From Gracilaria domingensis (lineage: Eukaryota; Rhodophyta; Florideophyceae; Gracilariales; Gracilariaceae): a stretch of 64,000 nucleotides of DNA. The stretch is taken from NCBI GenBank assembly GCA_022539475.1, contig VCMS01000173.1, positions 53,468-117,467 of the forward strand, read 5' to 3'. Of the stretch, positions 25,337 through 63,629 are shown piece after piece. A model generated the notes under the pieces. That model saw only the letters and a program-made list of their open reading frames with translations, made no database searches and had not been told where the DNA came from. The position numbers and the translations under genes are program-made. Numbering within the stretch: position 1 is the first letter of the stretch; each line of letters begins with the position of its first letter.

Positions 25337-25636
25337 CGTCTGTGTTCTGCAAAGTGGAATATAGTCTGTTCGCTTTGGAAACTGAGCTAGTTTTGGGGCT
25401 ATTTGGGGCGCGCGAGGGGGTAGCAGAGGCTGGCACTCAAAAAATTAAGAAATTTTGGAATATTAAATTCCATCTCGCGCAGTTTAGTTCTTGGGTCCCC
25501 TAGTTTTTGTAGAGGTTCTACTTCGCCGCACCACCCCATTCACTCTTTTCCGCGACCCTTTCTCAAAACTGCACTCGTGCTAGTTTGCGTTTCCATTTTC
25601 TCCCATGTTGCAATGCCAATCGCAACTCATCCCACC
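25337..25636. repeat. X1 left subterminal region
   Basis: About 300 bp, highly similar (over 90 percent by eye) to 51799-52098 of X2, with similarity starting exactly at CGTCTGTG and ending where the cargo diverges. It includes GCTAGTTTTGG and runs of G. Because both copies start at the same base but continue into unrelated sequence, this marks the element's left end. Confidence 0.85.
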
Positions 25637-25774
25637 TCAATCATCCCATCACTTCTTCCCAGTCCACACCACCCCCGCTATTTACCCATTTCTCGCCCAT
25701 CACGCGTTCATTTTGTAGAAGTCAGGTGCACAGCTCTCCCCCTTCTCGTATACCCGCCTCGCCCGAAAACGGCT

Positions 25775-26704
25775 TCAAATCCCTCCCATCCTTCTCTCCT
25801 CCTGTCCCCTCAGAATCCCCTTCGCAGTCCGCGCTATCTCCGCCGCACTCCTAAACCCAGTCACCACCGGAGCTCCCACTCCCTCCCGCGGCACCTCCTC
25901 CACCACCTTCTTCATCTCCTTACGCCTCTTCTTCAGACGGCTCTTCCCATCCCAAACCCCACCACCCTTTGTCTTCGGTGTCACAGGAGACCCCTTCTGC
26001 ACCGCCACCCTTCCCACGCTTCCCTTCTCCGTCTTTCCCTCCACACCTCCTTTCACCCTCTCCTCTTCCACCAATCTTTGCCTCTTGCACAGCTCCTTCA
26101 CCTCCTTCTCCAGCACGTCCAACCTCTCGTTCAGAACCCTATTCTCCTCCCGCAACTCTCCAACCTCCCTTCCCGCACACTCCACTATCCCATACACATG
26201 ATTTCTCATCTCCACTCCCAATACAGACAACGAATTCCGCAAGCTCGAAATCGCCTCAACCGAAACACCACTACCACCCCCACTCAGCACCACACCGCCC
26301 ATTTCCGTTACAATCTCCACAATTCCATCGTCCAGTTGCTCCTTCATCACCAACCCCAACATCCCCACCCTTGCCTTCATCTCCCCCACAAACCGCATCT
26401 CCCTGTCACCCTCTCCGCCCCCACTCTCTATCTGGTCTCCAACCTCTAACTGACTCAGATGCACCGCACCCCTTCTCTCCATTGCGACCCCCTCCACCTC
26501 CAATTCTACCCCCTTCTCCACCTCATCACCATCCCCTCTCCCCGCCTCACACTTCTTTCCTTCCTCAGCCACTTCCTTCTTCTGCGACATCCGACCAGCC
26601 GCCGTAATCACGTCCTCTTCCCGCTTTGGTGACGGCGTCTGCGGTACCTCCTTCCCCTCCAACAGCACCCACAGCTCCTCATCCTTCACGTATCCGTTCG
26701 ACAT
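25775..26704 (-). CDS. Unrecognised coiled-coil basic protein carried by X1
   Basis: ORF of 309 aa from ATG 26704. The start is chosen because the upstream extension lacks an ATG and reads as untranslated sequence. It is rich in Glu, Lys, Gly and Val. A leucine-spaced coiled coil runs through LREENRVLNERLDVLEKEV (about 26080-26140), followed by a Lys/Arg cluster (SRLKKRRKEMKKVVEE). No catalytic motif. The opposite strand shows a Pro/His/Ser-rich frame that is only its shadow. The gene is intact, next to X1's left end, and could be an accessory transposon protein or captured host gene; I cannot tell. Confidence 0.55.
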   Translation of the reverse strand: MSNGYVKDEELWVLLEGKEVPQTPSPKREEDVITAAGRMSQKKEVAEEGKKCEAGRGDGDEVEKGVELEVEGVAMERRGAVHLSQLEVGDQIESGGGEGDREMRFVGEMKARVGMLGLVMKEQLDDGIVEIVTEMGGVVLSGGGSGVSVEAISSLRNSLSVLGVEMRNHVYGIVECAGREVGELREENRVLNERLDVLEKEVKELCKRQRLVEEERVKGGVEGKTEKGSVGRVAVQKGSPVTPKTKGGGVWDGKSRLKKRRKEMKKVVEEVPREGVGAPVVTGFRSAAEIARTAKGILRGQEERRMGGI

Positions 26705-26937
26705 CTTCAGAAAAAGAAGTAGTAGTTGGATCGAAGTTTCCGCTGCGATACAGTGCAATCGAGCTAAACTGTGCTGTCCACCCCCACTGTCCAACCACAC
26801 GGGCTATATCCAGCACCATGATTGTCCCTGTTTCCCTCATCCCATTTCCCGCCAAAACATCCACTGTACACCTCCGCACCTTCCACTATTTAAGCGCCAT
26901 CTCTCTGTCCCCTCTTCACATAGTCCCCACCCACCTC

Positions 26938-27268
26938 GCCTCGACCGGCGATATTTTTCTCTTCCACCATAACCCCACTCGATGGTTATAGCAAAACAGG
27001 AAGATATTGCCAGTGGAGGCAAGCTAGGGACTAGTGATTGTACTTAGAGTTGCTCACCCTCTGTCGACTGGGGGCATGTTCTTCTTCCGTCACATCCTTT
27101 GTGGGTTGTGACAAAAAAAGAATATGTCACCACTCGACACCGGATGGGTAACAATGATAGCACGTAGAGTAGTTCATCCTCCCTCTCAGCGTCCACTGGG
27201 GATATATTTATGTTCTCTCACATCCTTTCCCGGTTGTGATACAAGAGAAATACATCTCCAATGGAGAC
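26938..27268. repeat. Three tandem hairpin units in X1
   Basis: Three diverged units with a period of about 127 bp, each folding into a long hairpin of 75-85 nt: 26938-27020, 27063-27138 and 27191-27268. Arm sequences differ between units while pairing persists (for example CCGTCACA...TGTGAC in unit 2, TCTCACA...TTGTGAT in unit 3). Spacers share a block like GATAGCACGTAGAGTAG. Could be structured RNA or a decayed inverted-repeat satellite. Confidence 0.6.
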
Positions 27269-27335
27269 GGAGAATTTAGTTGTGATAACACGTAAAGGTA
27301 ACAATGTAATAAACAATAAATTTATGCTACTATCT

Positions 27336-27656
27336 CTAACCAACCTTTCGAAAACCAGCTATGACATGAGCTGGGTTACTCGAGCCAAAGATGGCAGATC
27401 CTGCAACTGAAATGTTTGCACCGGCCTTCACTACTGCTTTCACAGTACTCAGTCCAATACCTCCATCCACCTGTATCCCTATTCTTGGGTACAACTCCCT
27501 TGCATGTCGCACCTTATCAAGAACACCCTCCATAAACGCCTGTCCTCCAAACCCTGGCTCCACCGTCATCAACAATAACATGTCTACAACTCCTTCCTTC
27601 ATAAGTGCTTCTACGACCTTTATAGACGTATTCGGGCGCAATCCAACTCCATCCTT
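27336..27656 (-). pseudogene. RPE: Ribulose-phosphate 3-epimerase fragment
   Basis: C-terminal part of the TIM-barrel pentose-phosphate enzyme that interconverts ribulose 5-phosphate and xylulose 5-phosphate. Family signatures: GVGLRPNTSI, LMTVEPGFGGQAFM, IQVDGGIGLSTV (catalytic Asp) and the phosphate-binding VAGSAIFGS, ending in the typical helix. Only about 105 codons are open, against about 220 in intact enzymes. A TAA (27657-27659) stands immediately upstream and no N-terminal half with the metal-binding His residues is seen. It is a 5'-truncated copy inside transposon X1. Confidence 0.88.
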
Positions 27657-28053
27657 TTAATTATGGCAATCTGATTGAAGCTATAAAACCCGTTCACCTC
27701 ATTTATGAAGCCAAAATGGCTCCTTTCATCCTGTATTCAAGCTCCCCGTAACTCGTACTTTACAACTACTTTACAACTCAGGTTCGAAATCAGTTTCATT
27801 CATTGCACACTTTCTACTCTTCCACCTACCTTTCATAAAACATCATCACACTGTGTGGCTTGTCGTCTCATACAAGGCCTATCATTCATTCAGTACAATC
27901 ACATATCATACATTTCGCTCACTTTCACAAAGTGAACCATGTTCCCGTTCTGCGCTTCCCAACCGTTTGTACTTACGTATCACTCTTTACCCCAGCAGTT
28001 CTCCGCCCCATCTTCCCTTTTTATCGTCACACAAAAACAATCGAACACTTGCA

Positions 28054-28924
28054 ATGAAATCCAAGTCCGACATGCCTCCGACTCCGCCTCCGAGTCCCAG
28101 ATACTCTGACGTCCCTCAGGCCTCATCTCCTGCCCGAAGGACTCGGGCCGTTATTGTTGGAAGGGGGCGTATAGGTACCATGCTGGCGAACGAAGAAGAT
28201 ACGGTCATTTCCGCACACGAATTCTGCAGCATGGCTGCTACCTCTCATCTTTCTGATGTACCGATACTAGTTTGTGGAAGAACGAACACCCTGGAGACCG
28301 TAATTCAGGCTTGCCCTTATTCGCTCAGAGAGAATCTCGTTTTCTTCCAGAATGGAGACATCATACCATTGCTTTCGAAGCTCGGTGTGGACAAATGTTC
28401 AAAAGTTGTCCTATACGTTCTCACCATGTCACTCCAAAGTCGGATGGTCTCACTGTCGCAACAGGAAAGTGGGCCTCCAACGTTGCAGACAGGTTTAGGT
28501 CTATGGGTCTCACTTGCGGGTTGTCGACGAAGACACATTTCTCGTAAGCTATTATGAGAAGCTCGTGTGGCTATCAGCGTTCAACATCGTCGGGGCCTCA
28601 AGAGGTTTCATTCCTATGGACGTAGTCGCTACGGAGTGCAGTACGGTTGTGCTCACAATAATGAAAGAGCTGTTGAAGATAGTTTCGTTTAAGACAGGTA
28701 CTACTTTCCACCTGGAAGAGACCGTTGGGCGACTTCTTGCATATGGGAAAACTCTCGTTGGCTTCCCTACTTCTTTCTCCGACTTTCAGTTTAGGAACGC
28801 GTACTTCTACGACTTTTCCCGCCAAGAAAGAAACATTGTAGGCGGTGACCCCGCTCCTTTTCATACAAACTACGTCAACGTTGTTAAGGAAAAGTTATCC
28901 CCCTCCCCATTCCCCCAGCTTTGA
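28054..28924 (+). pseudogene. Ketopantoate-reductase-like NAD(P)-binding protein, two frameshifts
   Basis: From ATG 28054: a Pro-rich start, a Rossmann motif AVIVGRGRIGTML, then FFQNGDIIPLL resembling the QNG segment of ketopantoate reductases. The frame then shifts by -1 near 28430 (DGLTVATGKWASNVADRF) and again by -1 near 28515, after which YYEKLVWLSAFNIVGA resembles the family's K-x-x-x-N helix carrying the catalytic Lys. The C-terminal part runs to TGA 28924. Two single-base losses would explain the pattern. Located in X1 between the epimerase relic and ORF1. Family call by motif only. Confidence 0.6.
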
Positions 28925-29238
28925 GGTTAGAACACATGACTTTTCGGTGTTGTAAACCTTTTAGAGATAGTTAAACATAAAAGTTACTTTATCGAAATGA
29001 CCTGTTCCTATTACATTACTTATATTGTTCGTCCTTCTGTGGTTCAAATATGCCCCTTTAAATCCTACATCCCTTATCACTAATACTTCGCTAAGACTTT
29101 GCTAGATAGAAAATGGTCATTCCATATCATTAAAGTGCACGATACTAGTAACGAAACAAGTACAAAAATTGTGATATTTCTGAAGAAGTAAGCGTTTGCA
29201 TTACTTGGGGCACCCGTATAAAGTAAGGTACACCTTTT

Positions 29239-31491
29239 ATGCGTCCTTCTACAGGACTCTCTCGCCCATCTCGCAGCGGAGCATCTTCCGGGATTGCGTC
29301 AAGAATTCGTGGATCAGCGAACGATGTCGTGCCGTCAACTGCCGATAATGCAAATCGTGCATCTGTCTCTGCTCCTCAAGAAGATGAGGTAACTCGGCCC
29401 AGCGGGTCAGGACAGGAGGGCATGACAACTGGAACCGAAGAGGTTCGTATGACACCAAAACCTTCATGTCCCCGGCCGATATCGAAGACCGGAGCTACTG
29501 GGGCGCGGGTTACGCCGCCCAGTGGATCTGGACAACAAGGGACAATGACGAGAAGTCGTGAGAGTCCTATTATATTAAGATCGTCACGTCCATCCCTCTC
29601 TTCTAGAACTGGGGCCGCTATGAATCGTATCATGCCTCGCAATGGGTCCGGACAAGGGAGAAACACAATAAGAAATCGAGAGACAACTGATAGACGAGTT
29701 ACTTTTCGACCTTCCCCTCTTTCCAGAACGGGGGCCGTTGCAGCTCGTACGAGGCCCAATTCATCTGATATACCATGCCATGGAGGAGGACATACACGGG
29801 AGTTGGAGCTCGGAGCCGTGCCAAGGGTGGACACAGAACGCCTGCAGCCTCTCGTGGCTAAGGCTATGGCACATGAGGATAGTTCCGATAACGAAATAAC
29901 ACCGAATCCTGCGGCATTACCGGGGCCTGTCGCCGAAGAAGCTAGGGAAATAACGGAAGATATCCAAACTGGTGTGAATTCAAGCTCTATGAACAGACCT
30001 GATCTTTTAAATGAACTGAATTGCTTGAAAGAAAAGGTTAAGACGCTACAAGAGGACTTGATGGTTCGGGGAATTCTAGTGAAGGTCGCCCAAGAGCAGA
30101 GTACGGCTTTGAAAAAGAGGCTTGAAGAGAAGGATCTAGTCATTGAAGGGCTAAGAGGGGCACTGAAACAGGAGGGAGATAGGAGTACACGTGCTGGTGA
30201 ACCTGGGCAGACAGGTCGAAAGAAGCATAAAATTGAGGTGTGCGACGAGTTTCGAGGGGTTGCTCGAGCAGTGTATCACAACATGCTGACGTGGGCAAGG
30301 AGAGAAACAAGTGAGCTATGGCTCGAAGGTGAGTCGCTCACCCGAAATTGGGGTAACCGTGCCGAGAAGGTGGAAGACGCAACTGAGAGTGGGGAAGGGC
30401 TTATTGAGCCGGAGGAAGGTGGTTCATACATGGTTCCTAAAAACCCCGTGGAGCTCTTGGGCAGTTTTGGCATGTTCACACCTTCGGTAGAGGGGGGGCC
30501 AGATGCTTTGCTGAAGAAAATGGTTGAAAGCGAGTTGAAGGAGTTGAGCTGGGAAGGTATTAGAAAAGCATCTCTTTCCGACAGGTGTATACTGGAACTT
30601 TGTGCAGATATGTGCCTTAGGCAGAGAATGCGGCAGACCATGAGTGACGTCGTGGGCGTTCGTAAGAGAAATACGAGGGATAAACTATTTCTGCTTCTGG
30701 GGTACGATCTGATTTGGAGAAGAACAAAGCTGGTAGAAGAGAATGCTGACGAACTCACAATGCAGTTGAAGGAAGCGCAGGAGAACATACTGCGTCTTGA
30801 TGAAAATGGTGTACCGAACACTTCATGGTGGAGAAAAGCCCCATTTGTTCGTCTAAAGTACTCCAATGCGGACAATGTCGAGGATATGCCGACGGAAGAT
30901 CAAGACTTGTTCTTCCGAAACCGTGTCGGGGTACAAGTGCTGAAGGAGTTTATTGGGTATGATGTGGAAGACAAGGATACGGGCACCTTTTTAGATGGCA
31001 CAATACTGTTGCTCGCACGTTTGGACGCTTGGGTGTTGACGGTTGTGAGCCTTCTAAGTACGGATGTGTCAAGGGGTGGCCAGAGACAGAAACTGTTTAC
31101 AAAGAAGTTTGCTGAACTGCTACCTCTGTGTTTAAAGAATGTTCTGGGGGATGTTAGGCAACATGTCTTGAGGACCAATTCCAGCGAGTTTCATAATTTT
31201 GGAACGACAACGGAAGATTGGACTAAGGTTCTTGGTAATGACATGAGAGAGGCTACATTTGGATATCGAATGCCGTCGAACGGAAGACTTTACCTCACTG
31301 TGAAAGAACAATTTTTTATTGACAGTGTGAGCCGAAGATTGGGGTCTATTAGCGATTGCTTCGTTGGTGAATGCGAGGAAGGGGATATGGAGTTCAAGGA
31401 AATGGACATGAACGATTTCGGAATTAACACAGGATCACAAGAAAAGGCACCACAAGGTGAACATGTAGAAGATGGAGCCCTTAATGTTTAA
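29239..31491 (+). CDS. X1 ORF1, unrecognised 750-aa protein
   Basis: Intact ORF from ATG 29239. Residues about 55-170 contain imperfect repeats with SGSGQ and SRTGA/SKTGA motifs spaced about 37-45 residues, giving a basic disordered region. A coiled coil follows at about 255-315, then a larger, probably folded region (about 330-710) with no motif I recognise. Its stop overlaps that of the transposase on the opposite strand by two bases (31488-31491). A decayed N-terminal copy lies at 61034-61270 in X2, next to decayed transposase, so the pair travels together. By analogy with two-gene CACTA elements it may bind subterminal repeats; that is inference. Confidence 0.72.
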   Translation: MRPSTGLSRPSRSGASSGIASRIRGSANDVVPSTADNANRASVSAPQEDEVTRPSGSGQEGMTTGTEEVRMTPKPSCPRPISKTGATGARVTPPSGSGQQGTMTRSRESPIILRSSRPSLSSRTGAAMNRIMPRNGSGQGRNTIRNRETTDRRVTFRPSPLSRTGAVAARTRPNSSDIPCHGGGHTRELELGAVPRVDTERLQPLVAKAMAHEDSSDNEITPNPAALPGPVAEEAREITEDIQTGVNSSSMNRPDLLNELNCLKEKVKTLQEDLMVRGILVKVAQEQSTALKKRLEEKDLVIEGLRGALKQEGDRSTRAGEPGQTGRKKHKIEVCDEFRGVARAVYHNMLTWARRETSELWLEGESLTRNWGNRAEKVEDATESGEGLIEPEEGGSYMVPKNPVELLGSFGMFTPSVEGGPDALLKKMVESELKELSWEGIRKASLSDRCILELCADMCLRQRMRQTMSDVVGVRKRNTRDKLFLLLGYDLIWRRTKLVEENADELTMQLKEAQENILRLDENGVPNTSWWRKAPFVRLKYSNADNVEDMPTEDQDLFFRNRVGVQVLKEFIGYDVEDKDTGTFLDGTILLLARLDAWVLTVVSLLSTDVSRGGQRQKLFTKKFAELLPLCLKNVLGDVRQHVLRTNSSEFHNFGTTTEDWTKVLGNDMREATFGYRMPSNGRLYLTVKEQFFIDSVSRRLGSISDCFVGECEEGDMEFKEMDMNDFGINTGSQEKAPQGEHVEDGALNV

Positions 31492-34400
31492 GGCTGTACA
31501 AGATCAACGTGCTCAGTTGGTCCTTCATCTGAATCATGATAGAATCGATTGATGTAGAATCGGTGTTGGAACCATTGAAGTGGAGGACAAAAAGATGGAG
31601 CAGGGTAGTTTGATCGAACAACATGGACAGTTCCCTGTAGTGCAGAAGCCGGAACCATCCCGTACCAAGGAGTTAACTCTACGATAGTCTCCGCTTTGGA
31701 ATGAAGAGGGAACGGAAGAGTGTGGTTCTTTTCATCGTTTGTAGCCCACCGTAAAGATATGCATTTCAATATGTGGTCGATGTTTGTTGCGGGGGGTAAA
31801 ACCTCGAAATACCGGACGAATGCCACCTCTGGTACGGTAAGTGCAGAATCAAGGAGAGATATTCGAATCAGAGCGACTACCTGGGCAACCCAAGTCTCTG
31901 AATCTTCTCCGCTTACCAATACAGTGGAAAACTTTGGCTTTCTACTGGGACCAAATGCTGGAGAAGCGAAGACACGTTGGATGATGGGGTATTTGGGTCG
32001 TCCCAGCTTAAGTGCCTTAGAAGACGAATCGAAGTGTTCAAGAGTCGGAACGAAACCGCCTTTCACGAGGGCCGAATTCACCAGAGTTATCCTTGTCTTT
32101 TCTGGGAAGTATGTAATAGAGTGCTCATCCAGTGTTTCTTTCACGAGACTGAGGAAAGGAGGAAGGGCCTGTTCACCAATTTGATCAAGAATCGACCTTT
32201 TGTCCGTACTTGAGAACATTTCTCTAACAGCAGTCCATGTTTTTGAACTGGACATACTTGAAACACAATGTTGAAGAGCTCGTAAAGTGAAAGAACGCCC
32301 TCTCATTGCAAACCGAGGAAGCTGTGTGGAAGTTCCTGGTAAACCTGGATTACGCTGGTAAGGAGTATTGCCATTCCATTGCTTTCTAACATGTCTGTGC
32401 TCAATGGAGCGAATAGTCTCCTCCACAGCCGTTGCTGTTCTTCTGGACGTCTTTTTGTAGTGTCTCTTAAATAGCAGGTGTGCATGTTCGTATATGCCTG
32501 CGTCGTAGTACTTGATACTTCCCAGACGGCGAATATCGTCCACGAGATGATCGAGAAGATGAAACTTCAGAGTTCCCAGTCTGGAAGGATGAAAATCCGC
32601 CAGAGTCTTTGTTGCGGAACGCTTGAAGGCTTCAATCTCCGAACTAAGACACAGGAGAGAGCTTTCAGTCCAATACGGGTCACGATTGTATCTGAATAAG
32701 GTCGAGAGCAAGTCCGAGTACTGAGAGAAAACGGTTGTGATTGGGGCAACGTCCTGTTCTCCATAGCATATGTCAAAGAATGCTCCTATGAAGGGAAAGA
32801 CCATGTCAAGTGCTTTGTAGTTTTTGGCCTCCAGCATACCACGGAGACCGTCTTTCGTGAAGATACCATTCAAAGATTTGCCTTTCTCCTGCGTGGAGAA
32901 ATCGATATGTAAACCTTTGGCAGGAGAATCGCGTTCTATGGCAGCTAGAATTGCGTTTGCATGGTTGAGGAGTTGGGTGCGTATCGTTCGAAATGAACGC
33001 GATGCAGATGTTCCTATTGTGGTGCACAGGGTGTCTGACTGCAGTCTCTCGATTGTGGCCGTTTTTATCAACTTTGAGATGCCGAGATGCAAGTTGTGTA
33101 ATGGTTCGAATGAGAACAGACTGTATGGAGACAATCCCGGGATCATTCCAAGGCTTACGGAAGTTTCGAGGAACGAAGGAATGAGAGATATGGAATTTGA
33201 ACGCATCAGAGTATCCGCTTGAGATCTCCTCTCCCTCGCACGACGTGGACGTCTTTCCGCCTCGTCTTTTTGTGCATGTTGCAAGATAGCTGTGTATGTC
33301 TTTCGGATGCTTTTCGTGTGCTTTTGAGAACGTCCGTTGAATGAGGTGGGAATAGGACTGCATAAAGATGAGCGAGGGGCTTTGCATCTATGACACGGGC
33401 TTTCCGTTTTGGTCCCATGAAGAATGGACAGAATGTCCTTAGCCTCAGGAATATCCGCACAATAACTTGCAAGCAGAGGATGGCACACTCGACTTAGTTT
33501 GTCTTCCCCGATGAACTGAAAACCTTTCTGCGTGAGATTTAGAATGGGCTCCAGGACTTGACGAAGAGATTCTTGAAGGATTTGCATCCTGGACTCGCGT
33601 AGAGACTTGCTAGAAACAAATGGCATTGCGTCTGCTTCAGATGCGGAAACCTCGATCAGTGTGGTAGGGAAGTATGCCACTACTGTGAGGTCATCACGGA
33701 TACACTTACGGCGAAGCTGGTCGGAGAAGTTGAGAAATATGAGGTGAAGAGGATAGGCGGTAACCGATGTTTGCTTTAGAGTTGTTGAAGACTTATCGGT
33801 GTATACCTGCAGAAGACCTACGAAAGATTCACTGTAACTTATTTCTTGGGAGTACCACACTATTCTACTATCCAAAGAGCCCATGACCATTTCCTTAAGT
33901 TTTGAGGTGGCGTCTCTTGCGAGAGAGCCGGACATGGGGTGAGATATTTTCGTGGAGTGGGTCTGAGGTATAGGGTGGAAGAATGTGTTTTCGTTGTTAG
34001 CCAACTGGAGCTGTTTCACAAGTGTCTGAACGGGGTCTCTCGTGTAGAGGGTGGCGCTGAACTTACATCCTTCTGGCGAGACAGTTCTGCGATTGAAACC
34101 GTCCTTTGAGGCGTATCGTTCGAAAATGGCCTTCTTCAGTTCTGTACAGCGCTTAGAACTTGTTATGGTCTCGTTGAATCGCTTTTGCGAGAATCGCGGG
34201 TCCCGAAGTAGCCCAATTAGCTCGTCCGCCTCACGATGACCAAGGTTGGAAGCTACTGAAGCCAGACAAACCGTGAGATAATCCATATGCAAATCACCGA
34301 GGGCCTCCTCAGAAGGCACTGGGCGGGAACTGCTTCCGTGTTCTCGCTCTAATGACGCGGGAGCCGGGGAAGGAGAAACACAATGCGAAGTGTCCGGAAG

Positions 34401-34763
34401 GGGAGGGGCGCACGGAGTGGGGTCGACGATGTCCTCGGACACTGGAGGCTCGGGAAGGCGACAAGGGGCAGTGACCGTTTCGGAAGATGCGGGCGCGGGT
34501 GCGGAAAGCTTGAGACGCTTGCTTCTCCGAATGGGCCGGCTATTGTCGTCTTCCAGCGCTGCTTTCAGACGAAACGGGCAATGGTTGACATGCTGTTGAA
34601 GGGATAAGACTCCTCGGCGAGTAACGAAGGGGCACCCACGCTTCTTATGTGTACAGTAGTAGACCATGGGAAGAAGAACTGAACGAGAAACGACGACAAA
34701 GACTGCAAGGGAAGGGCGTCCGAAGGGAGAAGGAGGTCGAGCGACAGTCAAGATCGACGTCAT
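31488..34763 (-). CDS. X1 ORF2, Plavaka/CACTA-like transposase
   Basis: Intact 1091-aa ORF from ATG 34763. It has an N-terminal Cys/His motif (YYCTHKKRGC...HVNHC, residues about 35-60), a disordered Pro/Ser region (65-155), and then a catalytic-type core. Family-like landmarks are YSFV-type strands followed by YPLHLIFLNFSDQLRRK, a GKTESPCHRC-like zinc pair (near residue 458), FEPLHNLHLGISK (near 555-567), matching the D/F-x-L-H-x5-G-x2-K motif, and YDAGIYEHAHLLFKRHYKK (about 755-775), matching the E-x-x-H...K motif near the end of Plavaka proteins. Decayed copy at about 61340-63600. It is the likely mobiliser of the X family; catalytic residues are not assigned individually. Confidence 0.72.
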   Translation of the reverse strand: MTSILTVARPPSPFGRPSLAVFVVVSRSVLLPMVYYCTHKKRGCPFVTRRGVLSLQQHVNHCPFRLKAALEDDNSRPIRRSKRLKLSAPAPASSETVTAPCRLPEPPVSEDIVDPTPCAPPLPDTSHCVSPSPAPASLEREHGSSSRPVPSEEALGDLHMDYLTVCLASVASNLGHREADELIGLLRDPRFSQKRFNETITSSKRCTELKKAIFERYASKDGFNRRTVSPEGCKFSATLYTRDPVQTLVKQLQLANNENTFFHPIPQTHSTKISHPMSGSLARDATSKLKEMVMGSLDSRIVWYSQEISYSESFVGLLQVYTDKSSTTLKQTSVTAYPLHLIFLNFSDQLRRKCIRDDLTVVAYFPTTLIEVSASEADAMPFVSSKSLRESRMQILQESLRQVLEPILNLTQKGFQFIGEDKLSRVCHPLLASYCADIPEAKDILSILHGTKTESPCHRCKAPRSSLCSPIPTSFNGRSQKHTKSIRKTYTAILQHAQKDEAERRPRRARERRSQADTLMRSNSISLIPSFLETSVSLGMIPGLSPYSLFSFEPLHNLHLGISKLIKTATIERLQSDTLCTTIGTSASRSFRTIRTQLLNHANAILAAIERDSPAKGLHIDFSTQEKGKSLNGIFTKDGLRGMLEAKNYKALDMVFPFIGAFFDICYGEQDVAPITTVFSQYSDLLSTLFRYNRDPYWTESSLLCLSSEIEAFKRSATKTLADFHPSRLGTLKFHLLDHLVDDIRRLGSIKYYDAGIYEHAHLLFKRHYKKTSRRTATAVEETIRSIEHRHVRKQWNGNTPYQRNPGLPGTSTQLPRFAMRGRSFTLRALQHCVSSMSSSKTWTAVREMFSSTDKRSILDQIGEQALPPFLSLVKETLDEHSITYFPEKTRITLVNSALVKGGFVPTLEHFDSSSKALKLGRPKYPIIQRVFASPAFGPSRKPKFSTVLVSGEDSETWVAQVVALIRISLLDSALTVPEVAFVRYFEVLPPATNIDHILKCISLRWATNDEKNHTLPFPLHSKAETIVELTPWYGMVPASALQGTVHVVRSNYPAPSFCPPLQWFQHRFYINRFYHDSDEGPTEHVDLVQP

Positions 34764-34796
34764 GCTGAGAACGGAGAATATATTTTGAGTTTAAAT

Positions 34797-35111
34797 CACG
34801 TGCTTTCGTTCAAAAAGGAACGTAGGTACACGTCGACCTCAACACAAGGGTGTACTTCTCGTATTATCTACCACTGGTTATAAACCTGTGGTTTCCCAAC
34901 GTTGTACGCTGTACACTTGTCCAATCTCGCACAGAAAAATAAATCTCTTCCCTTCGCCGCCGCCGCCGCGCCTCCGACGTCCGAACTTCCGTTACCGTCG
35001 TGAGCCATGCCATCGATATCATCGCGTTATACTCCGCTCCGTCGTACTTTTTCCCGCCCTCCACTTTATGGAGGCTCCATAAAGTAGAGGGCGGAAGAAA
35101 GTAGGACGGAG
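34797..35111. repeat. Upstream region of ORF2 shared with X2, ending in a long inverted repeat
   Basis: 34797-35035 aligns with about 63630-63840 in X2, including a CGCCGCCGCC tract. It ends in a 37-bp inverted repeat with a 1-nt spacer (35037-35073 / 35075-35111, four mismatches). The X2 copy has different palindromes at the corresponding place, so these fold-backs arose independently in each copy. Confidence 0.65.
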
Positions 35112-35386
35112 TCATCCGTATCTCAGGGATGTATTCCGTGCAGTCTTTTCGTACGTTCTTCCATATCCTTCCACGTATCTTTGCTCTAAACTAACCAATC
35201 CTCACCGCGTTTTTTCGCGCTCTGCGACATGGAAACGGCAGGAAATAAGCTAATCACCCTCAACTTCTTCTATTTGTTCAAGATATAGAACGAGTTGAAG
35301 GGTGAAAACGGGAACCCGGTAACCCAAACCGACGACTGTAAGTACGCGACCAATAGTTCATTTCGTTGCGCCATAGGCTCTAGCTC

Positions 35387-36143
35387 TGCCTGTTCGGGAT
35401 AGGCGATTCTGGTACTTGGTTGGGACATAGGCTGCTCTCTCGTTTATCGCATCTTGCGGTATGCTTGCTGCTTGGGCATTCTCGGTGTCGTTGCTTGTGA
35501 GTTCTTGCTTCGAGACCTTTCGCGTTTTACGATGAATGGATTGCTGGTAATCGAACCGATCACTTTCCTTCTTCTTCTTCCTTTTGCGAGTTACTAGGTC
35601 CCTCGACTTTTCTAGCGCAACGTTTCTGTTTTGCTTTATCAATGGTACGTTCCATCGCAATTCAAATGTTTCCAACGGAGCATTGACTAACTTATGGATA
35701 CTTTCTGCTTGCGTATACAGGTAAACGACCAATTTTATTTCATCTCTCCAGATCCATCATCGATCTTGAGAGACAAAATGAAATTGGTCGTTTTACTGTC
35801 TGACTGTTCGGGATAGGCGATTCTGGTACTTGTTTGAGATATAGGCTAGATTCTCGTTTATCGCGTCTTGCGGTATGTTTGCTGCATGGGCATTCTCGGT
35901 GTCCTTGCTTGTGAGTTCTCGCTTCGACACCTTTCGCGGTTTACGATGATATGGTGGCCTGGTAATCTAACCGATCCCTTTCCTGCTTCTTCTTCCGTTT
36001 GCGAGTTACCAGGTCCCTCGACTTTTCTAGCGCAACGTTTCTGTTTCGTTTTATCAATGGTACGTTCCATCGCATTTCAAATGTATCTAACGGATCATTG
36101 ACTAACTTATGGACAATTTCTGCTTGCGTATACAGGTAAATGA
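35387..36143. repeat. Tandem duplication of about 340 bp split by an inverted repeat
   Basis: 35387-35732 and 35806-36143 are diverged direct copies, both beginning CTGTTCGGGATAGGCGATTC and ending near TACAGGTAAA. Between them is a fold-back with 26-bp arms (35723-35748 / 35768-35793). On the minus strand the first copy has a 124-codon Lys/Arg-rich frame (35358-35732); the second copy's frame is broken, so I do not call a gene. Confidence 0.65.
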
Positions 36144-36181
36144 CTTTTGATGCGGACGTAGCTCACGAGTTGCAGGTGCAG

Positions 36182-36341
36182 GTTCCTCAAGTAGGGAACC
36201 ATGCATCTGGGCATGGTTCCCTACATGAGGAACGGAGAGGATGAGGCGCTTCGCGCCTCATCCTCTCGGAGTGCGTATGTGTTCTACCGATACCGCAATT
36301 TCGTGCAGGTGCCCTCTGCGGCATCTGCCGCAGATTGCGCC
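36182..36341. repeat. Cluster of three palindromes in X1
   Basis: 36182-36204/36211-36233 (23-bp arms, one mismatch), 36235-36249/36253-36267 (15-bp perfect arms, 3-nt loop) and a shorter one within 36306-36341 (CTGCGGC/GCCGCAG). None is an obvious terminator in this context. Confidence 0.65.
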
Positions 36342-36632
36342 TACACCCGCTCCATTATGGGGAAATGGTACATGTAATATAGCGAAGTAGTGGTTAGCAA
36401 AAGCGGTCGATAGAAGAATAGATACGAATAAAACGGTATGATTTCAGAATGGGCATCATCTGTACTAGCACTAGTATTCCATGCGTTGCAGGGTATCATT
36501 CCGCAGAAGGTATCGTGTAATGTGCACCTTAATGGAAACTGAACCTAGACTTCGCGAAATACGGTTCAGGTAGCCCTCGACTAAAGAACTAGCACGAGTG
36601 GAAAACCCCCCAGTATTTACTGCACAGAGATT
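36342..36632. other. X1 right-end proximal DNA without a gene
   Basis: No supported coding sequence or known motif. Confidence 0.4.
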
Positions 36633-36765
36633 CTGGACGACCCAAGCAATTATTTGCAAATTTTGAAATAATTGATCTCGATATTTTTTCAAAAAATTTA
36701 CTGGACGACCCTTGCCAATTTCTGGACGACCCTCGCCAAAAACTAGCATCTGCAAGAGACAGACG
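36633..36765. repeat. X1 right terminus with subterminal repeats
   Basis: Three copies of CTGGACGACCC (36633-36643, 36701-36711, 36722-36732), CCAAAAACTAGC (36736-36747) and the terminal GCAAGAGACAGACG. The last 117 bases are virtually identical to the window start (X0). Repeated short motifs near an end are typical transposase-binding sites in CACTA-like elements. Confidence 0.75.
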
Positions 36766-51798: not shown

Positions 51799-52098
51799 CG
51801 TCTGTGTTCTGCAAAGTGGAATATAGTCTGTTCGCTTTGGAAACTAAGCTAGTTTTTGGGCTATTTGGGGCGCGCGAGGGGGTGGCAGAGGCTGGCACTC
51901 AAAAAATTATGAAATTTTGGAATATTGAATTCCATCTCGCGCAGTTTAATTCTTGGGTCTCTTAGTTTTTGTAGAGGTTCTACTTCGCCGCACCACCCCA
52001 TCCACTCTTTTCCGCGACCCTCTCTCAAATCTGCGCTCGTGCTAGTTTGCGTTTCCATTTTCTCCCAAGTGGCGATGCAAGTCGCAACTCATCTCATG
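51799..52098. repeat. X2 left subterminal region
   Basis: Counterpart of 25337-25636. GCTAGTTTTTGG at 51848-51859 is identical to the reverse complement of the right-end motif. Confidence 0.85.
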
Positions 52099-52214
52099 TC
52101 AACCACCCTGCTATTCATTCTCATCTATCATGGCTCCCCACCTTAGCATTCTAGAAGCAAATTTTATTTACTTTGCGCTCTTTGCCGCGAGAAGAGACCC
52201 GCCGACTGCACCTA

Positions 52215-52667
52215 TCACTCGCTGTCGCCTACCGATTTCGTCGTGCGTCCCGCCGCTTCCAGGTACAGCCCGACCATGTACTCACGGCACATCGCCGGTG
52301 CCGTCTTCGCGCCCTCCGCCTCCCGCGCGTTGGACGCCACAACCATTGGCAGCGCGCTCATCACACCCCAGAACAGTTTCATCCTCTCGCCAAACTAGCC
52401 CTGTTGGAGATGATGCCTTTCGTGTCGGTACTGTTCCCGCAGCAGCGTCAGGCTCGGCTTCATTGCCACCAACTCGCAGTTGCTCCATCGCGCGATGTAC
52501 GCAGTCATCACTCCCGTGTCGGTTACCCCGTAAACATCCGCACGGCATCCACCACAGAAGCTTGGGAACGCTTCCTTCATCTTCCCGAATGATACAGATC
52601 CACTTTCGTCCTTTATTTCAGTCCTAACCTCTTCGAATGCACCTGCTGCCACGATTTCGGAGGACAC
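52215..52667 (-). pseudogene. Unidentified coding relic, possibly the LCB2 C-terminus
   Basis: About 150 codons in one frame with a single in-frame TAG (52395). Segments include ADVYGVTDTGVMTAYI and MSALPMVVVASNA. They lie just where the C-terminal domain of the adjacent LCB2 copy is expected and loosely resemble its YG-x-x-DSPV and AVVVVGFP motifs, but spacing is longer and the frame differs. I rate the identity as uncertain. Confidence 0.35.
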
Positions 52668-53552
52668 GATGCCGACGCATAGAGAGAAGCTGGAGAAAGC
52701 GCGAAAATACGTTCAGTTAGAGCAGATTCGGAAGAGAAGTAACCTCCAACGGTCCTGAACGATTTAGTGAAGGTACGTATCATAATATCAATACTACGCG
52801 TATCTACACTATCATAGTGATGATGCCCCGAAACACCTCGTTTGGTCGGTCCAAGGGCGCCAATGGAATTCGCCTCATCCACGTATAAGCAGGCATCATT
52901 CTTATTTTTGACTGCGACAACCTGGCAAAGATTGCACATCTGACCTTCCACTGAGTACATACTCTCGACAACCGTCATGATTCGTTTCCACAGAGGGCTC
53001 TTGTCAGGGTATCCCGTAGCAATGCCAACAAGAATATTACTTTCCTACGATTCTGCCAAATTATGTTCAAACACGCGAATCCTGGCGCCGAATGAGCGAC
53101 CGTCGACCATGACAGACGCGTCATTCATCAGGCCGGAGATGGCGAGATCGCCCCTACCCACAATAGCTGGGATGATCTGCCAGTTGGTGGTAAGGACGGT
53201 GCCAACCACGATGGCATCTTTCTTACCAAAATCTTTGGCGACCGTGCGCTCCAGGTTGCGTACAAGCTCAGAGCGCCCCGTAGACACAGACACATTGCAC
53301 GAAGCGACACCACACTGATCTAAGACATCGGTGACGTACGAGTGAACACTTTCAAGAACCTCAGCATACCCCAGGTAATTGCACCTGCCCAAGTTACGAA
53401 ACCTCGTAACCCTGGCAGTAGGGTCCGGAGACATGGAAGAATGCTCGGCCGCGGGAGTGACATCGGCCTGAATGGGTGTGTACGCTGGATGAACCAACCA
53501 ACCAACGGGGCATCATGCGTGCTCCTTAGCTCTCTTCAAGACTTCGCCCATA
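52613..53552 (-). pseudogene. LCB2: Serine palmitoyltransferase subunit LCB2, truncated and mutated
   Basis: Catalytic subunit of the ER enzyme joining serine and palmitoyl-CoA, the first step of sphingolipid synthesis. Recognisable: CNYLGYAE, STGRSELVRNLERTVAKDF, RVFEHNL, VVESMYSVEGQ, YVDEANSIGALGPTKRGV and TFTKSFRTVGGYF, which contains the PLP-binding Lys. The DEAHSIG His has become Asn. In-frame stops: TAG at 53045 and TGA near 53510. The membrane-anchoring N-terminus is missing, and the coding runs out at 52613. One frame over about 295 codons with a single stop indicates decay by substitution. Confidence 0.85.
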
Positions 53553-53829
53553 TGAACATCAATTTCGGGCTATAAATGGCCGATTAGTGGCCGTAATTAT
53601 TTCCAAAATAGATTTAATTGGCCGTATAATGGGCGTGTACAGTACAGTGGCCATTTGGATGCCTTGCCGTATTGTATTCTATGGATCGTTATTGGTACAA
53701 AATGTAGCTGCAGAGATAATGATGACGAAATATGGTCTCCATTGGACCCAGATCATACGACGCAATTATGATTTGGACCAGTTCCACGTCATTTATTTCT
53801 ATTTCGCTACTCTTCTCAGCTCACGTCCT

Positions 53830-56800
53830 GGCGCGCCTGCTACCGGCGCTGGTCACAACGCTCTCTACGCCGTCCGCTGCCGCGTGCGGTGGGTGCCTGC
53901 ACCAAAGGCGCGCCGCTCCTCCGCGACGCGCTGCGCGCCATCGGCTACACCGCGCTGTTCTACCTAGCGCTGCGCATCCCGTCGCTGCTGCTGGCCGACC
54001 CCACAGCCGCCCCGCGCTTCTCCTCCAGCGCGAGCGCGCTGGCGCCCCCGCCGCCCGTGCCCACCGCCGCCGAGTAGGCGCTCGTCACGCTGTCGCTTTT
54101 CGTGTCGCTGAGCACGCGCGACTCGTCGCCATTTCGCGCCGCCGCGCTGGGCGCGCTCATGCCCGCCATGCTCGACGCGCGCCCGCTGTGAGAGCCGGCG
54201 TGCGCCACCGCCGTACACTGGGCTGAAGACATCTTCTCCTTAGCTGACACGCACGCGCGCCTTATCGAAGTCCTCGCCGCCTCCAACGCCAGCCCACGCG
54301 TCATGCAACTCGCCGCTGCCGGGATGCGCCGGCGCAAACTCGCGCGCCACGCCGCGCTAGCGCGCGGGAGCCACCCCCGCCGCTTGCGCCCATTATCGCA
54401 GTGTACGGAGCGCATTGCGAGCGCCACTAGCCGCGTAGCTGCTCCGTGGCAGCATATCTGCTGTTTGCGCTGCGCTACCTAGTGCAGCAGCTCGCGCCGG
54501 CACGCCGGTTGCAGCTGCTGCCCGCCGCCAATCTGCACGTGCTGTTGCGCGCCGACGCGGACGCGTTGCACGCGCTGCGAGCCGCGCTGAGCACCGCGCA
54601 GCAGCGGCTGCTGCAGCCGCGCTGGCGGTGGTGCTGCTGGCTTCGAACGCGCCCTCGCTGGGCGAGCAGGTGGCACGCGCGCTACGGCATGAGCTGCAAG
54701 ACTTGTTCTCGCTCATTGCCCCCCAGTCTGCCTTGGGAGATGTATTTGTGCGCTTCTCGTCGCCGTCTGCTGCGACGCGCTCTCCAATATCGTATACTTC
54801 CCCCCAAGGGTCAGCAAGATATTGTTGGAAACCTCGTCCGGTCTCTGACCGCCGGCGAGCGGGCTGCGGTGATCGTCCCGGGCAATCAAGGAGTGTTTCT
54901 CGAGTTCAGCGGCGTGGAAGTGGAATCAAAAACGGCTGGCGCGCGCTCTGGTACCAACGAGAAGCTCTGTAGTCCGGCTCAAGACATGGGTCAACCTGGA
55001 ACAGTCGCAAGCGCGCAGCATTGGCAGTTCCCTCTTGAATAATGATATCGCCGCCGAACAGCTTCGACTGCACGTGAAGAGTCTTTTGCTGCGCTTGTAT
55101 GTGTACTGCCATCACCCGATATAGAGCGTTCGCATTGCTATGCGCTCAATTATATCCGCGGTGGTCAAGGCTTCTGGTCACGGCTCAGTGGCCGAGGCGA
55201 TCAAGGCGAACTTGCTTGCAGTGACGGACCACTGCATCAAGTCAATCGTTTCCCGGCAATGGCGTTCGCGAGAAGCGGGGTGCGCCGCGCTTCGCGACGT
55301 TCTTGCCTCCCGCACATGGGAGGAGGTGAAGGACTCTTTAAAGGATTTCTGGTACTACACACTGAGGGCTATGGATGATATGAAGGAAAGTGTGCGAAAG
55401 AGTGCTCAAGGCACTGGAAGGGCACTCTCGGAACTTTCGATATATCTACGTAATCCAAACTATTTGGGTGAAGAGGAATCGGCTCAAGCCGTTGACGTTG
55501 TACTGTCTGTGCTTATGACGTCCTTCACACACAGGGCCGAGGAGGTGAGAGCGCTCGTGTCAAAGACTCTGTCCGAGATCACACGACATGGAGGAACGGC
55601 CTTGCGGTCGTCTGTGCCGGATTTGATCGCGAATCTGTTGGACGTTGCGACAGAGCTCGAGCCGCAAATCTTAAACTACGCGGAGTATCATGTAGCCTCA
55701 CCGGAGGAGCTGCAAAACGCTCTGGTCACTGCATCGAGTATGTCCTCGTCCTCTTTGATCGAGTCGATTGAAAGGCTCATAGGGCAAGTTGACGAGACAA
55801 TCGCGGCGGAGGTGGTTCCGAATCTGGCACGATTGGCTCGCGTAGGAGTGGGAATTCCTACGCGTGCAGCGACGGCAAGGTTGATGTCGAGCGTTCTGCA
55901 ATCCAGAGCAGTGGGCATGGAAACATATGCTGCAAAGCTGCAGTTTTCAGCGGCAAGCGCTGCGGGCATGGAGCGCAACGCAATGCTTCGAAAGGCATGG
56001 TGCAAGGCCGCTGGCAGAGGTTCAAAGTTGTGCCGCGTCGATGAAGTTGCAAAGTATTGCAAACAAAATTAGCAAGAAGGCCACATCGGAGTATCCTCGG
56101 GATCGCGCGCTTGCCTCGTCTCTCGCTGCTGGGTTGTGTCGGATGGCGCCCGATACGACCCAGCAGCACGCAAGCTCTATACGGCCCTTCGCATACATGG
56201 GGCGCCCTGAAACAGACGACGACGTAGGAGATGACAGCAAGAACTGGAAAGACGCCTGGAATAAAGGTGCGCCAAGTACTCAGGCCGGGCTTCGTTTGTA
56301 CGCAAAGGCGATTGTTGAAATATGTGAGCAACGGCTATCTACTTCTGCTCAGTACCGCGTGAAAAGGAACGCCGCAGCCACGCTAGGGGACCTCACGAAC
56401 GCTTCAAATGACATTGTCGATGTACAGTACATGTCGCGAAGCGCAAAAACGTTGTTAGCGGTGCTTCCAGGTCATATTTGGAAAGGACAGCATGTTGCAA
56501 TTGAGGCCATTGGGTCTTTGGCAGATTTCTGTTCAAGCGCATCTTTGTGGGAGTCGTGCGGAGGGAGCGTAGCTGTTGTGCAGCCTGTGCTGTCCGAATC
56601 TGATCGAGGGAAGAAGGATTATCGAATTGCAGCAATTGATGCGGCGAGGAAGGTGCTGGTTAACACCCGAGAAACCGTTTGCATGTACGAGAAAGTCAGG
56701 GATCACTTGTCAGAGCTCGTGTCTCCAAACTCGTCGGATGTAAACGCTAGCGTACCAAATGTGTCACAGATGGTGTGGGAAACTGGGTCTGATGCAGATG

Positions 56801-57309
56801 CTGTTGATGCTTGGAACAAAGCGCGAAAGTCGCAAAAGCTATTGTGCAAAGCAGCGATTCAGTGCCTGCAATCTTCAATCACAGGGGTGGCGGGCGTTGA
56901 GAAGCTAGAAGAACACGTACTTAATTTGCTGTGTGTGTTTGAAGAACTGATGCAGAACGATTGGGACATTCGACTAACTGTACTTCAAGCCATTGAGAAG
57001 TTGTCCGAACGTTTCTCCAAACATGAACTGCAATTTAGAAACTCCCTGGAGCGCACTGAGGCATTGATTAAACGATTAGTAAACCTCAGCAAAAACGGCA
57101 TTCACGAACCCAAGTATAAAGTGCTAAGAAATAGTGGGTTAACAATTCTTGATCACTTGGTCAACGTTTCCAAGGATTCTACGGCAATGAAGGGTGTGAT
57201 TGTAGAGGACACGCGATCCAGAGGTCTCGGAACGAAGATTCCGAGCCTTGGGTGCGATCCGTTGCAATTAAACTATGCACGGCGTTGGCATTTCGTGATC
57301 ATAGTTTAG
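53830..57309 (+). pseudogene. ECM29: ECM29 proteasome scaffold, C-terminal half, broken
   Basis: HEAT-repeat protein that tethers the 26S proteasome. Matching blocks in order: LRDALRAIGYTALFYLALR (about 53920), ASNAPSLGEQVARALRHELQ (about 54650), GNLVRSLTAGER and TNEKLCSPAQDMGQP (about 54830-54995), YVYCHHPI-stop-SVRIAMRSI (about 55100-55150), WRSREAGCAALRDVL (55260) and LRAMDDMKESVRKSAQGTG (55360-55420), diagnostic of the family, and then helical repeats to 57309. Frames switch several times at 54430-55040 and once near 56020; stops include 54075, 54189 and 55123. The region 55140-57309 is almost open, in two frames. The N-terminal half is absent. Confidence 0.85.
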
Positions 57310-57827
57310 GCTGGGGCTTTTGAGGTTGAAAAGTAGAGCTTAGGCAGTTAGGCAAAGAGGTTCGGCTAATCTGTGTGTTTACGTATCTACCTGGTGACCG
57401 TCCAACGACTATGAATAACTCAATCGCGCGCCACTCACTTGGAAGCGCGGTCCCTTTTAGCTCATTCTAGGTAATCCAAGTAAGCTTTGAACGCAACTGA
57501 AGCTAGTTGTAATCGCCTTTACATGCGTGCGGTGTACGCGTCGGTAGTTACTCGTTGGGGGATGCTGTGCTTGAGACCTTGGGTGAGCACCAGACGCATG
57601 TGTTCCATCTGTTCATGCCGAATGAAAGCGCGTTAACTCTGCATCATCACCCGGGGTGCATGTGTATAAAAGAAGAACAGAAAGCTAATGGTCTGAACTC
57701 GGAACCGGCGACCACATTCTGATGACGACGATAGAGTGCATCAGTGACGGCTTTTCAGGATAATCTTGTTTCCCTCGACGTGCCAATGATGTCGCCCAAA
57801 GGCTGGCAGTAAGATTTTCTCGTGGTG
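57310..57827. other. Gap between ECM29 and lectin relics
   Basis: No coding or RNA feature seen. The two relics are convergent, so this is shared 3' sequence. Confidence 0.5.
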
Positions 57828-59400
57828 TTAGACCATTCGATGCACTTTCCGCACGGCCAACGACATCTTATTGACATGGTATACGCCAACTCTCAAAAGC
57901 GCTTGAATGATTACGAACATGATAAGGGTACCACTTCCGCCAGGAGACTGCTCGGTGATGCTCTCGTGATGATCCACCAACTCCTCGTTCAGATCATCAT
58001 GCGAATCAGAAATGTTATGCGTCTTCTACTTAAGCGCACGCCGCGAGTTATGAAGGCCTTGCAACTGGCTAGAAAACCTGCCCGAAGCACGCGACAAGTC
58101 GCCTGCAGTAGCCTTAAGAGGTTTCAAAACGGCCACCAACTGCCACATGTCGCCCTTTTGTTTCTCCATCTCGCGAATGAGTTGCGCAATGATTTGGCGC
58201 ACACCCTCCAGTCGAAGCTTTCTTTCTTGCGCATTCTCGTCGCCGAGGCCCTTGAAAATGGACGTCATAGAGTTGTACACCTCGTACACCTGCAGGTCTG
58301 AAGAGCCTGAGATCGACGAGGTGGCGTCCTCTCTGCGGTGCATGCGCGCGGTAGGGTTCAGATCGGTGCGATGCGGAGGCGGAGCAGGGGCGGTGCTGTC
58401 ATTGCTACACCACTGGAGCTACCATTGAAAGCCGGCGGCACGTAGCCGCGCGAATTATCGCTCTGCTGCTGTTGTTGATGCTGTTTCCGCTGTTGTTGCT
58501 GTCACTGACCACGGTGGTCGGTCCGTAGTTCCGGAAGCAGAACCGGCGCCATACTGCTGCGAATAGTAGTCGGATCGATAAGTGTGGGCAACCTGAGCGG
58601 ATTCATGAATTAAGACGGCGTCATGGACCTCATGATTGGCAAAGAAATGGCCGGTCTCAGCAGGTAGTGCGAGGAAGCCACCACCAGAGAATGGCAGCTG
58701 CACACCCCAAACCTTGAAGCACGTATGCCAGCGTTGTGGGGCGCGTGGGTTCATAGCGACGCCCACGTGAAGATTGCCACCGAGCAGCTGGACTTACACG
58801 CGAATCGGGTGGTTCATCTCAAGCGAGCAGCCCTCGAAAAGCTTGGTATCCGCGCCATCGGTGTCAGGCTTTCATTGCTTGGTTCCGTCCGACACATAAA
58901 CGTACATATGGGCCACATTTCGCGTTCGAGAGTTGGAAAAGGTGTCGATAATGATGCCAAGCCCCACAAATATATGCGCAATACCCATGGCATAGCCTAA
59001 CCTCGGGCGGTCCCACAAAAAGAAGAAGTCCATACCATTGGCAGGGTCATGCGAATCGCGCACGGTATCTAACTCCACGTCGAAGTAGCCGTTGAAGTTT
59101 TGCGTATCGGTGGCAATGTCGTTGTAGAACAGCGCTTAATTTGACTGGCTCGCCGACATGAGGAGGACCACGTCGCGACCGGTGCGGCTGCGCGTGATCA
59201 TGGTCGTGCCCAGCTGAAACCCGTCGGAGACGGGGTCACCGGCGGCGATGGGCCTCGTTCGGGTGCCGAAAGAAGAGGTCCGGGCCTCCCGCGCCCAGGT
59301 AGAGAAACTGGAATAGCTGCGGGTTTTGCTGCTGTCACTACAGCAGCGACGGCAACGCGAGGGCTCTGGCAGCCAGCAGTAGCAGCACGCAAATCGGCGC
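57828..59400 (-). pseudogene. L-type lectin cargo receptor (ERGIC-53/VIP36-like), nonsense-riddled
   Basis: Type I membrane lectin of the early secretory pathway. Signal-peptide-like CVLLLLAARALALPSLL (about 59330-59385), then the lectin fold: GTTMITRS, YFDVELDTVRDSHDPANG, VGLGIIIDTFSN (metal-site strand), FKVWGVQLPFSGGGFLALPA and TGHFFANHEVHD, typical of the last strands. Gln/Ser-rich linker (about 58440-58560), coiled coil (KQKGDMWQLVAVLKPLK), transmembrane segment LIMFVIIQALLRVGVY and a basic tail to 57828. In one frame from 59136 on there are stops at 59136, 58872, about 58806, 58455 and 58026. The linker is better read in another frame, implying compensating indels. The N-terminal part also switches frame. 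Confidence 0.8.
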
Positions 59401-59835
59401 GAGACGCGGCGTCGACGACGACTCACGGCGGGATGGCGGCGACGGTGAACGAGTGGCGCGCGCGAAAGTTCGGGAGGCTGGAAGCGAGGTCCGTGAGCGA
59501 ACGGAGGGCGTGGTTTACGGGCGGTATGGCAGGGTGCCAGTGATGACGGGCAACGGCAGCGATCCCCACGCGGAAGTGCACGCGGGGGTGGAGCGCGAAG
59601 GAGCCTAGTGCAATTGTACTGCACGTACAGCGCGCATAAAATGACTGAAGCGCGCAACATGCGCACATTGGAAGGCGTCGCGCGCCACGTCACATCGACG
59701 ACGCACAGCTCTGCGGCGCGAGACAGCCGCGCGCGGAGTGCGCCGCGCACGGGAATGCGCGCCCTCGCGCGCGTCAGCGAGGCGCTTCAGCTCGAACAGC
59801 ATGCGCTACGTTTTGGCTGGCGTTGCGTGCGGTGT

Positions 59836-61270: not shown

Positions 61271-61339
61271 AGATATAAATCGGCGTGTTGTGGAGATACC
61301 GTAAAATGCTGCCAAAGGTGTTAGTTCTTCTTCTGTTAA

Positions 61340-63600: not shown

Positions 63601-63629
63601 GCTGACGAATGGAGAAATAAATTTGAGTT

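Follow-up and report, generated by a model that had tools for sequence, protein, structure and literature searches.

A giant Plavaka-type DNA transposon carrying host-gene fragments in the red alga Gracilaria domingensis, one copy of a high-copy family

The window analysed here is a stretch of 64,000 nucleotides from the red alga Gracilaria domingensis (GenBank assembly GCA_022539475.1, contig VCMS01000173.1, positions 53,468 to 117,467 of the forward strand), in which an earlier note, made from the letters alone, had described a giant DNA transposon, X1. X1 is a real mobile unit, one copy of a high-copy DNA-transposon family. Very probably it belongs to a giant, recently amplified cut-and-paste family of this red alga that has a Plavaka-type (CMC/CACTA-related) DDE transposase. 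The element, its terminal inverted repeats (TIRs), its open reading frames (ORFs) and its repeats are arranged as follows (positions of the window):

25337..36765, X1, complete giant Plavaka-type element of 11,429 bp, with a TT target duplication on both sides
25337..25353, plus strand, left TIR, CGTCTGTGTTCTGCAAA, 13 of 17 bases matching the right end
25775..26704, minus strand, ORF3, about 309 amino acids, no Pfam family
27336..27656, minus strand, C-terminal half of a ribulose-phosphate 3-epimerase (PF00834, E=1.1e-25)
28054..28924, plus strand, orfK, an orphan gene, broken in X1 (32 bases absent relative to sequence L087)
29227..31491, plus strand, partner ORF, an orphan of 754 codons (750 amino acids from the first Met), with 59 scored places in the genome, 28 of them without a stop
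31488..34790, minus strand, Plavaka-type transposase of 1100 codons, open in X1 (PF18759, E=1.1e-18)
35385..36144, subterminal repeat of 346 bp in two direct copies about 90% alike (35385-35729 and 35799-36144)
36634..36731, plus strand, three copies of the motif TGGACGACC near the right end
36749..36765, minus strand, right TIR, reading TCTGCAAGAGACAGACG on the plus strand

The TIRs of X1 are short and imperfect: 13 of the 17 outermost bases are identical between the two ends, a value reached by none of 20,000 shuffles. Ends, inverted repeats and flanking TT had all been given in the earlier note, and all of them stand. The termini CGTCTGT..ACAGACG are present in X1, in four full copies fetched from the genome (C8a, C19a, C6a and C27a) and among the ends listed in a pattern search of the assembly (77.9 Mb in 680 contigs; a size of 78 Mb is given in PMC10388701). 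This search, proposed in the note and run with up to two mismatches, returned 570 left-end and 553 right-end places, and reversed-pattern controls returned none; further copies with these ends therefore exist. Continuation of the element past 25337 or 36765 was not seen in the loci read, where the flanks vary between copies immediately beyond both ends. An Rfam scan of X1 found no family reaching its gathering score.

Ends were paired among the first 100 places listed per end, all of them exact; ends with one or two mismatches lay outside the pairing. On contigs C1-C67 this gave 99 typed left and 92 typed right ends (191 in all), and two adjacent ends on the same strand were counted as a pair. 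The 44 pairs obtained measure 6,378 to 24,310 bp and cluster around 10.3, 13.8-14.4 and 22.3-22.9 kb, and none of the 44 is shorter than 6.4 kb. Where both flanks could be compared (17 copies), a 2-bp target duplication was found in 13 and a 3-bp duplication in none (chance P about 5e-13). Pairs of 20,150 and 21,352 bp are among these 13 and are taken as single units, since their target duplications match. Taking every end as one complete copy, at the median pair length of about 13 kb, would put the family at about 9% of the genome; because under half of the typed ends pair, we estimate its share at 4-9%.

The note had also argued that removal of X1 restores a gypsy leader that aligns with the leader of a gypsy element in the window, its element A. 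This part is weak. The right flank of X1 aligns to 14291-14870 (94%), the left flank adds just about 7 bases to the alignment, and the left flank alone, compared with the sequence upstream of element A, scores 17, below the shuffled maximum of 33. It is the other copies and the target duplications that demonstrate the insertion of X1; the leader does not. The stretches 14291-15270 and 36786-37765 are 95% alike and are apparently parts of gypsy-type elements around X1, a label taken from the note.

The window itself contains a second member of the family, X2:

51799..64000, plus strand, X2, second family copy, running off the contig end, its left 310 bp 93% identical to X1
52613..53512, minus strand, aminotransferase fragment (PF00155, E=1.7e-6 on 52613-53044; 53045-53512 without a Pfam match)
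55125..57309, plus strand, fragment of the ECM29 proteasome adapter (PF24492 on 55125-56072, E=5.6e-34; only weak HEAT matches in the next ORF, up to 57309)
61999-63872, degraded transposase

Both ends of the four fetched copies are common with X1 and their interiors differ. C8a and C19a have the left 3.7 kb of X1 and most of the transposase region (94-98%); the middle is different, and an array of palindromes takes the place of the partner ORF. This array, built of units of about 110 bp, lies mid-copy at 5540-6040 of L081 (C8a) and is also found in C19a, L085, L086 and X2; it was not found in X1. Two orphan ORFs of 375 and 157 codons occupy the partner slot in L081 (4045-5169 and 5160-5630, both minus strand), and neither has a Pfam family. 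The left-end stretch common with X1 extends over 310 bp in X2, 373 bp in C27a and only 137 bp in C6a; a Pfam scan of ten further ORFs of C27a and X2 gave no family. In 30 left ends taken by contig order (L021-L050), 25 match X1 over essentially the whole inside sequence read, at 90-99% identity. The others diverge from 310 bp (L022, L026) or from 137 bp (L030), are 76% identical over about 1 kb (L029) or are rearranged (L039).

The transposase has its first Met at codon 10, which gives the 1091 amino acids of the earlier note, and its assignment to the Plavaka type in a giant DNA transposon is borne out by Pfam. PF18759 matches residues 243-500 with 68 bits against a cutoff of 26.3, and is the sole Pfam family up to E=1. 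The motifs YTDKSS (residue 330), ADIPEA (445), CHRC (466), HLLDH (744) and YEHAH (767) each occur once as a pattern. C-x2-C and H-x3-H occur once each in the protein, and both fall between the second Asp and the Glu, with D, D and E assigned by eye rather than from a family alignment; Plavaka is described with this order, C(2)C and H(3-4)H lying between the second D and the E (PMC12730594). No homologue of the protein was found at E<=0.001 among 8000 scored candidates, PDB sequences gave weak, chance-like matches only, and a single-sequence fold model of residues 230-830 was too poor to use (mean predicted local distance difference test, pLDDT, 36.6). In six copies compared (X1, X2, C8a, C19a, C6a and C27a), the frame is undamaged in X1 only and cut or shifted in the five others, which fits movement of many copies in trans.

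X1 could instead be an ordinary giant EnSpm (CACTA) member of the kind found in Chondrus crispus, and not a Plavaka element, so that only the species would be new. Chondrus crispus has giant En/Spm families (16-20 kb, 4-5 ORFs; Kojima, Bao and Jurka 2013, cited in PMC6431247) that are similar to X1 in size and ORF number, and the EnSpm and Plavaka transposases are related (PMC12730594). EnSpm elements, however, are described with CAC..GTG termini and a 3-bp target duplication (PMC12730594), whereas the X1 family has neither of these: its termini are CGTCTGT..ACAGACG, its duplication has 2 bp, and 3 bp were seen in 0 of 17 copies. The transposase, moreover, matched Plavaka and no other Pfam family. 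The Chondrus giants are classed as EnSpm and are set apart from X1 by their description, not by sequence; they share with the X1 family the red-algal host, giant size and several ORFs, and are its nearest red-algal precedent. On balance we consider an ordinary EnSpm element unlikely and keep the Plavaka-type assignment.

Tail to tail with the transposase, and overlapping it by 4 bases (31488-31491), lies the partner ORF. The earlier note had reported this layout and had not recognised the partner; indeed it has no match in Pfam, NCBIfam or PDB sequences, and no homologue at E<=0.001 among 8000 scored candidates. A first look at the genome gave 891 candidate places, of which 59 were scored; they are 93-100% identical, and the stop-free ones include X1. 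In five pairs with a typed partner match the end of the partner is 5.0-5.5 kb from the right end, as in X1 (5.3 kb), whereas its start is 5.8 to 15.4 kb from the left end, compared with 3.9 kb in X1. This larger distance suggests that X1 could derive from a longer element by internal loss, provided that the long pairs are single elements, a caveat to which we return below. In plant CACTA elements a second, TnpA-type helper protein binds the subterminal repeats, and by this analogy a DNA-binding helper role may be ascribed to the partner.

Host genes are represented in the family by several pieces. The epimerase fragment in X1, named in the note, is a genuine piece of a PF00834 protein, so that the claim of captured host cargo stands for the epimerase; it does not extend to a ketopantoate-reductase-like gene, which the note had counted as well and which is treated below as orfK. 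Of 456 candidate places for the epimerase fragment 150 were scored; 149 of them are stop-free and 46 identical in protein (X1 included). Of 35 typed places, 16 are 2,004-2,047 bp from a left end and the other 19 lie outside pairs. The fragment is thus present at a near-fixed offset in at least 16 of the 44 pairs, counted among the matches listed, and is not peculiar to X1. The aminotransferase fragment of X2, judged by eye, is putatively serine-palmitoyltransferase-like.

For ECM29, 126 of 174 candidates were scored and gave 136 rows. Full or nearly full-length matches at 97-100% identity account for 27 of them (X2 included). One match, at 93%, lies inside an open frame of 1884 amino acids on contig C113. 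Further rows have 86-88% identity; three of these fall in frames given as 1408 amino acids and have stops inside the match. Nine ECM29 places were typed on C1-C67, and four of them lie within pairs 13.8-14.0 kb long, at a distance of 3.3-3.6 kb from the left end. Coding DNA that was captured between the TIRs and multiplied with the element is what we find for both the ECM29 and the epimerase fragments. A more distant ECM29-like set at 33-50% identity (e.g. on C459, C164 and C316) has several stops in most of its members and looks as if it were made of older generations of capture, or as if another family had spread the gene.

The gene that the note had called ketopantoate-reductase-like, orfK, did not keep this name: no ApbA/PanE match was found in Pfam, NCBIfam or PDB sequences, and by the same searches orfK is an orphan. 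PDB sequences gave weak, chance-like matches only, and a single-sequence fold model (mean pLDDT 38.3) was too weak to decide its identity. In a large protein set a single match at E<=1 was obtained, with 97% identity across 77% of the query; it is a Gracilaria domingensis entry annotated as a hypothetical protein. In the genome, the best 144 of 831 candidates were scored; 130 are stop-free and 14 have a stop, and most share an open frame of 415 codons; one copy was followed over its full length. orfK lies 2881-2949 bp from the left end in at least 15 of the 44 pairs, counted among the matches listed, so it too is not peculiar to X1. In four sequences the ratio of nonsynonymous to synonymous substitution (dN/dS) is about 0.5-0.8 at a synonymous distance of 0.02-0.04. 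Selection on orfK is possible; it is unproven, given the youth of the copies and a scored set made up of the best candidates. Of 38 left-end sequences that match ORF3, 23 keep it whole, with neither stop nor indel; in this set one copy is counted twice and seven sequences were fetched as best matches to the left end of X1. Six further left ends have no match. The mean dN/dS of ORF3 is 0.56 (34 sequences, one copy twice), which is suggestive only.

These numbers can also be read in another way: the gene pieces and orfK may have come in a single time and been amplified as passive passengers by drift, in one burst, with neither continuing capture nor selection on the cargo. The low synonymous distance of orfK speaks for this, since with so little divergence most frames could persist open through youth alone; its dN/dS is only about 0.5-0.8, and the 144 scored places, as the best of 831, favour intact ones. 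Against it, the one family has two or more cargo sets (epimerase with orfK, and aminotransferase with ECM29), and some ECM29 pieces of 86-87% identity lie in larger open frames, a hint of more than one generation. A stop in only 14 of the 144 orfK rows also argues against it, though here the bias to the best of 831 applies. We rate a single entry with passive spread a little short of an even chance.

DDE elements with TIRs and short target duplications move by cut and paste, and the occurrence of all three features in the X1 family is the reason to propose this mechanism here. The transposase, probably with the partner as a TnpA-type helper, would bind the short inverted and the subterminal repeats. 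It would then excise the element and insert it again at a cut staggered by 2 bp; copies whose own transposase gene is broken would be mobilised in trans. New cargo might be acquired by the Pack-CACTA route, in which neighbouring copies lose complementary ends and the host DNA that separated them ends up inside a hybrid element. In plants, Pack-CACTA formation is described from closely spaced tandem insertions that lost complementary ends (PMC13317346). Among the 191 typed ends there are four cases of head-to-tail neighbours 1.3-4.9 kb apart, so the arrangement needed for this type of capture seems to be present.

Several observations weigh against the picture of a cargo-bearing cut-and-paste family. 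Pairing succeeded for only 44 of the 99 typed left ends. In four of the 17 paired copies (22.9, 11.2, 14.1 and 19.0 kb) the flanking dinucleotides are unequal; these may be composites or mispaired ends. Because mismatched ends are unlisted, some long pairs, those of 22.3-24.3 kb included, could span two elements, and of the six longest (22.3-24.3 kb; C23, C34, C29, C54, C5 and C51) the duplication was checked in C5 alone, where it failed. A host progenitor of the epimerase fragment was not recognised among the 150 scored of 456 candidates, the ECM29 frame on C113 is no more than the likely host progenitor gene, and the helper role of the partner is inferred from the plant analogy. One could also take X1 for several independent insertions nested in one another, or for an artefact of the assembly, instead of one mobile unit. 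The family does seem to break contigs: from 14 of the 99 typed left ends the sequence runs into a contig start less than 15 kb away with no listed right end between, and the assembly probably breaks inside near-identical copies. The missing duplication in the four pairs points the same way. The same two ends and 2-bp duplications, however, recur on independent contigs, and the left-hand parts stand in constant order across many copies; a nest or artefact is largely contradicted and extremely improbable. X1 as a member of a giant cut-and-paste family remains by far the better explanation.

In the same assembly, profile searches found 11 matches to the light-harvesting family PF00504 and 14 to the phycobilisome linkers PF00427, four of the latter on C680, which we take as the plastid genome; both families point to a red alga.

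How new is the family? Plavaka elements of Agaricomycotina (PMC12730594) are like X1 in the PF18759 domain, the C(2)C/H(3)H order and the 2-bp duplication, and part of them have an additional gene, which in PlavakaB is TET/JBP. PlavakaA is described with a 2-bp duplication and TGT..ACA termini, PlavakaB with 2-3 bp and CATCA..TGATG (Kojima 2025, PMC12730594); CGTCTGT..ACAGACG fits neither. The red-algal host, the orphan partner, ORF3, orfK and the captured ECM29, epimerase and aminotransferase fragments further distinguish the X1 family from the fungal elements described there. The earlier note had considered a Plavaka element outside fungi to be new. This is too strong, since EnSpm-Plavaka elements are reported from the green alga Auxenochlorella (PMC12633428) and giant repeats flanked by Plavaka from Amoebidium (PMC11244446); the giant DNA transposon itself stands. 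The Amoebidium repeats are likewise large and non-fungal and have a Plavaka transposase, but they are described with tyrosine-recombinase genes in clusters of up to 50 kb, and Pfam found no such gene in the six X1 ORFs scanned.

Plant Pack-CACTA and Pack-TYPE elements (PMC8903248, PMC13317346) resemble the X1 family as TIR elements that multiply captured host-gene fragments, from several loci per element. They are mobilised in trans, which for the X1 family we only infer. In contrast to the plant elements as described, copies of the X1 family have at least 6 kb and a Plavaka-type transposase and occur outside land plants, and orfK is an open gene in many copies whereas plant Pack-TYPE cargo consists of fragments. 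A literature search on Gracilaria domingensis transposons, on red-algal EnSpm, Plavaka and giant transposons, on Chondrus EnSpm and on CACTA gene capture returned no title or abstract start that describes the X1 family. The kind of element is therefore known, from Pack-type capture, giant red-algal elements and non-fungal Plavaka; within the literature searched, novelty appears to lie in the termini, in the orphan genes and in a seaweed element with Pack-type cargo. Tentatively, and with the passenger reading still a serious competitor, the family might even be a third Plavaka lineage with its own termini and continuing capture, in which an autonomous giant with an orphan partner and a selected orphan gene would mobilise hundreds of cargo-bearing derivatives in trans and repeatedly copy host genes, ECM29 among them, across several percent of the genome of a seaweed.

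In the papers examined, the gene-shuffling TIR transposons are those of plants, and Plavaka elements are mostly fungal. The X1 family of a red alga is recent and high in copy number; it offers more than one set of cargo, a progenitor gene of ECM29 that is likely intact and an open transposase frame, which together make capture, mobilisation in trans and the fate of captured genes datable and testable. The X1 family may help to explain why red-algal genomes are rich in repeats. It may also help to explain element ORFs that are annotated as hypothetical proteins; the one database match of orfK is such a record.

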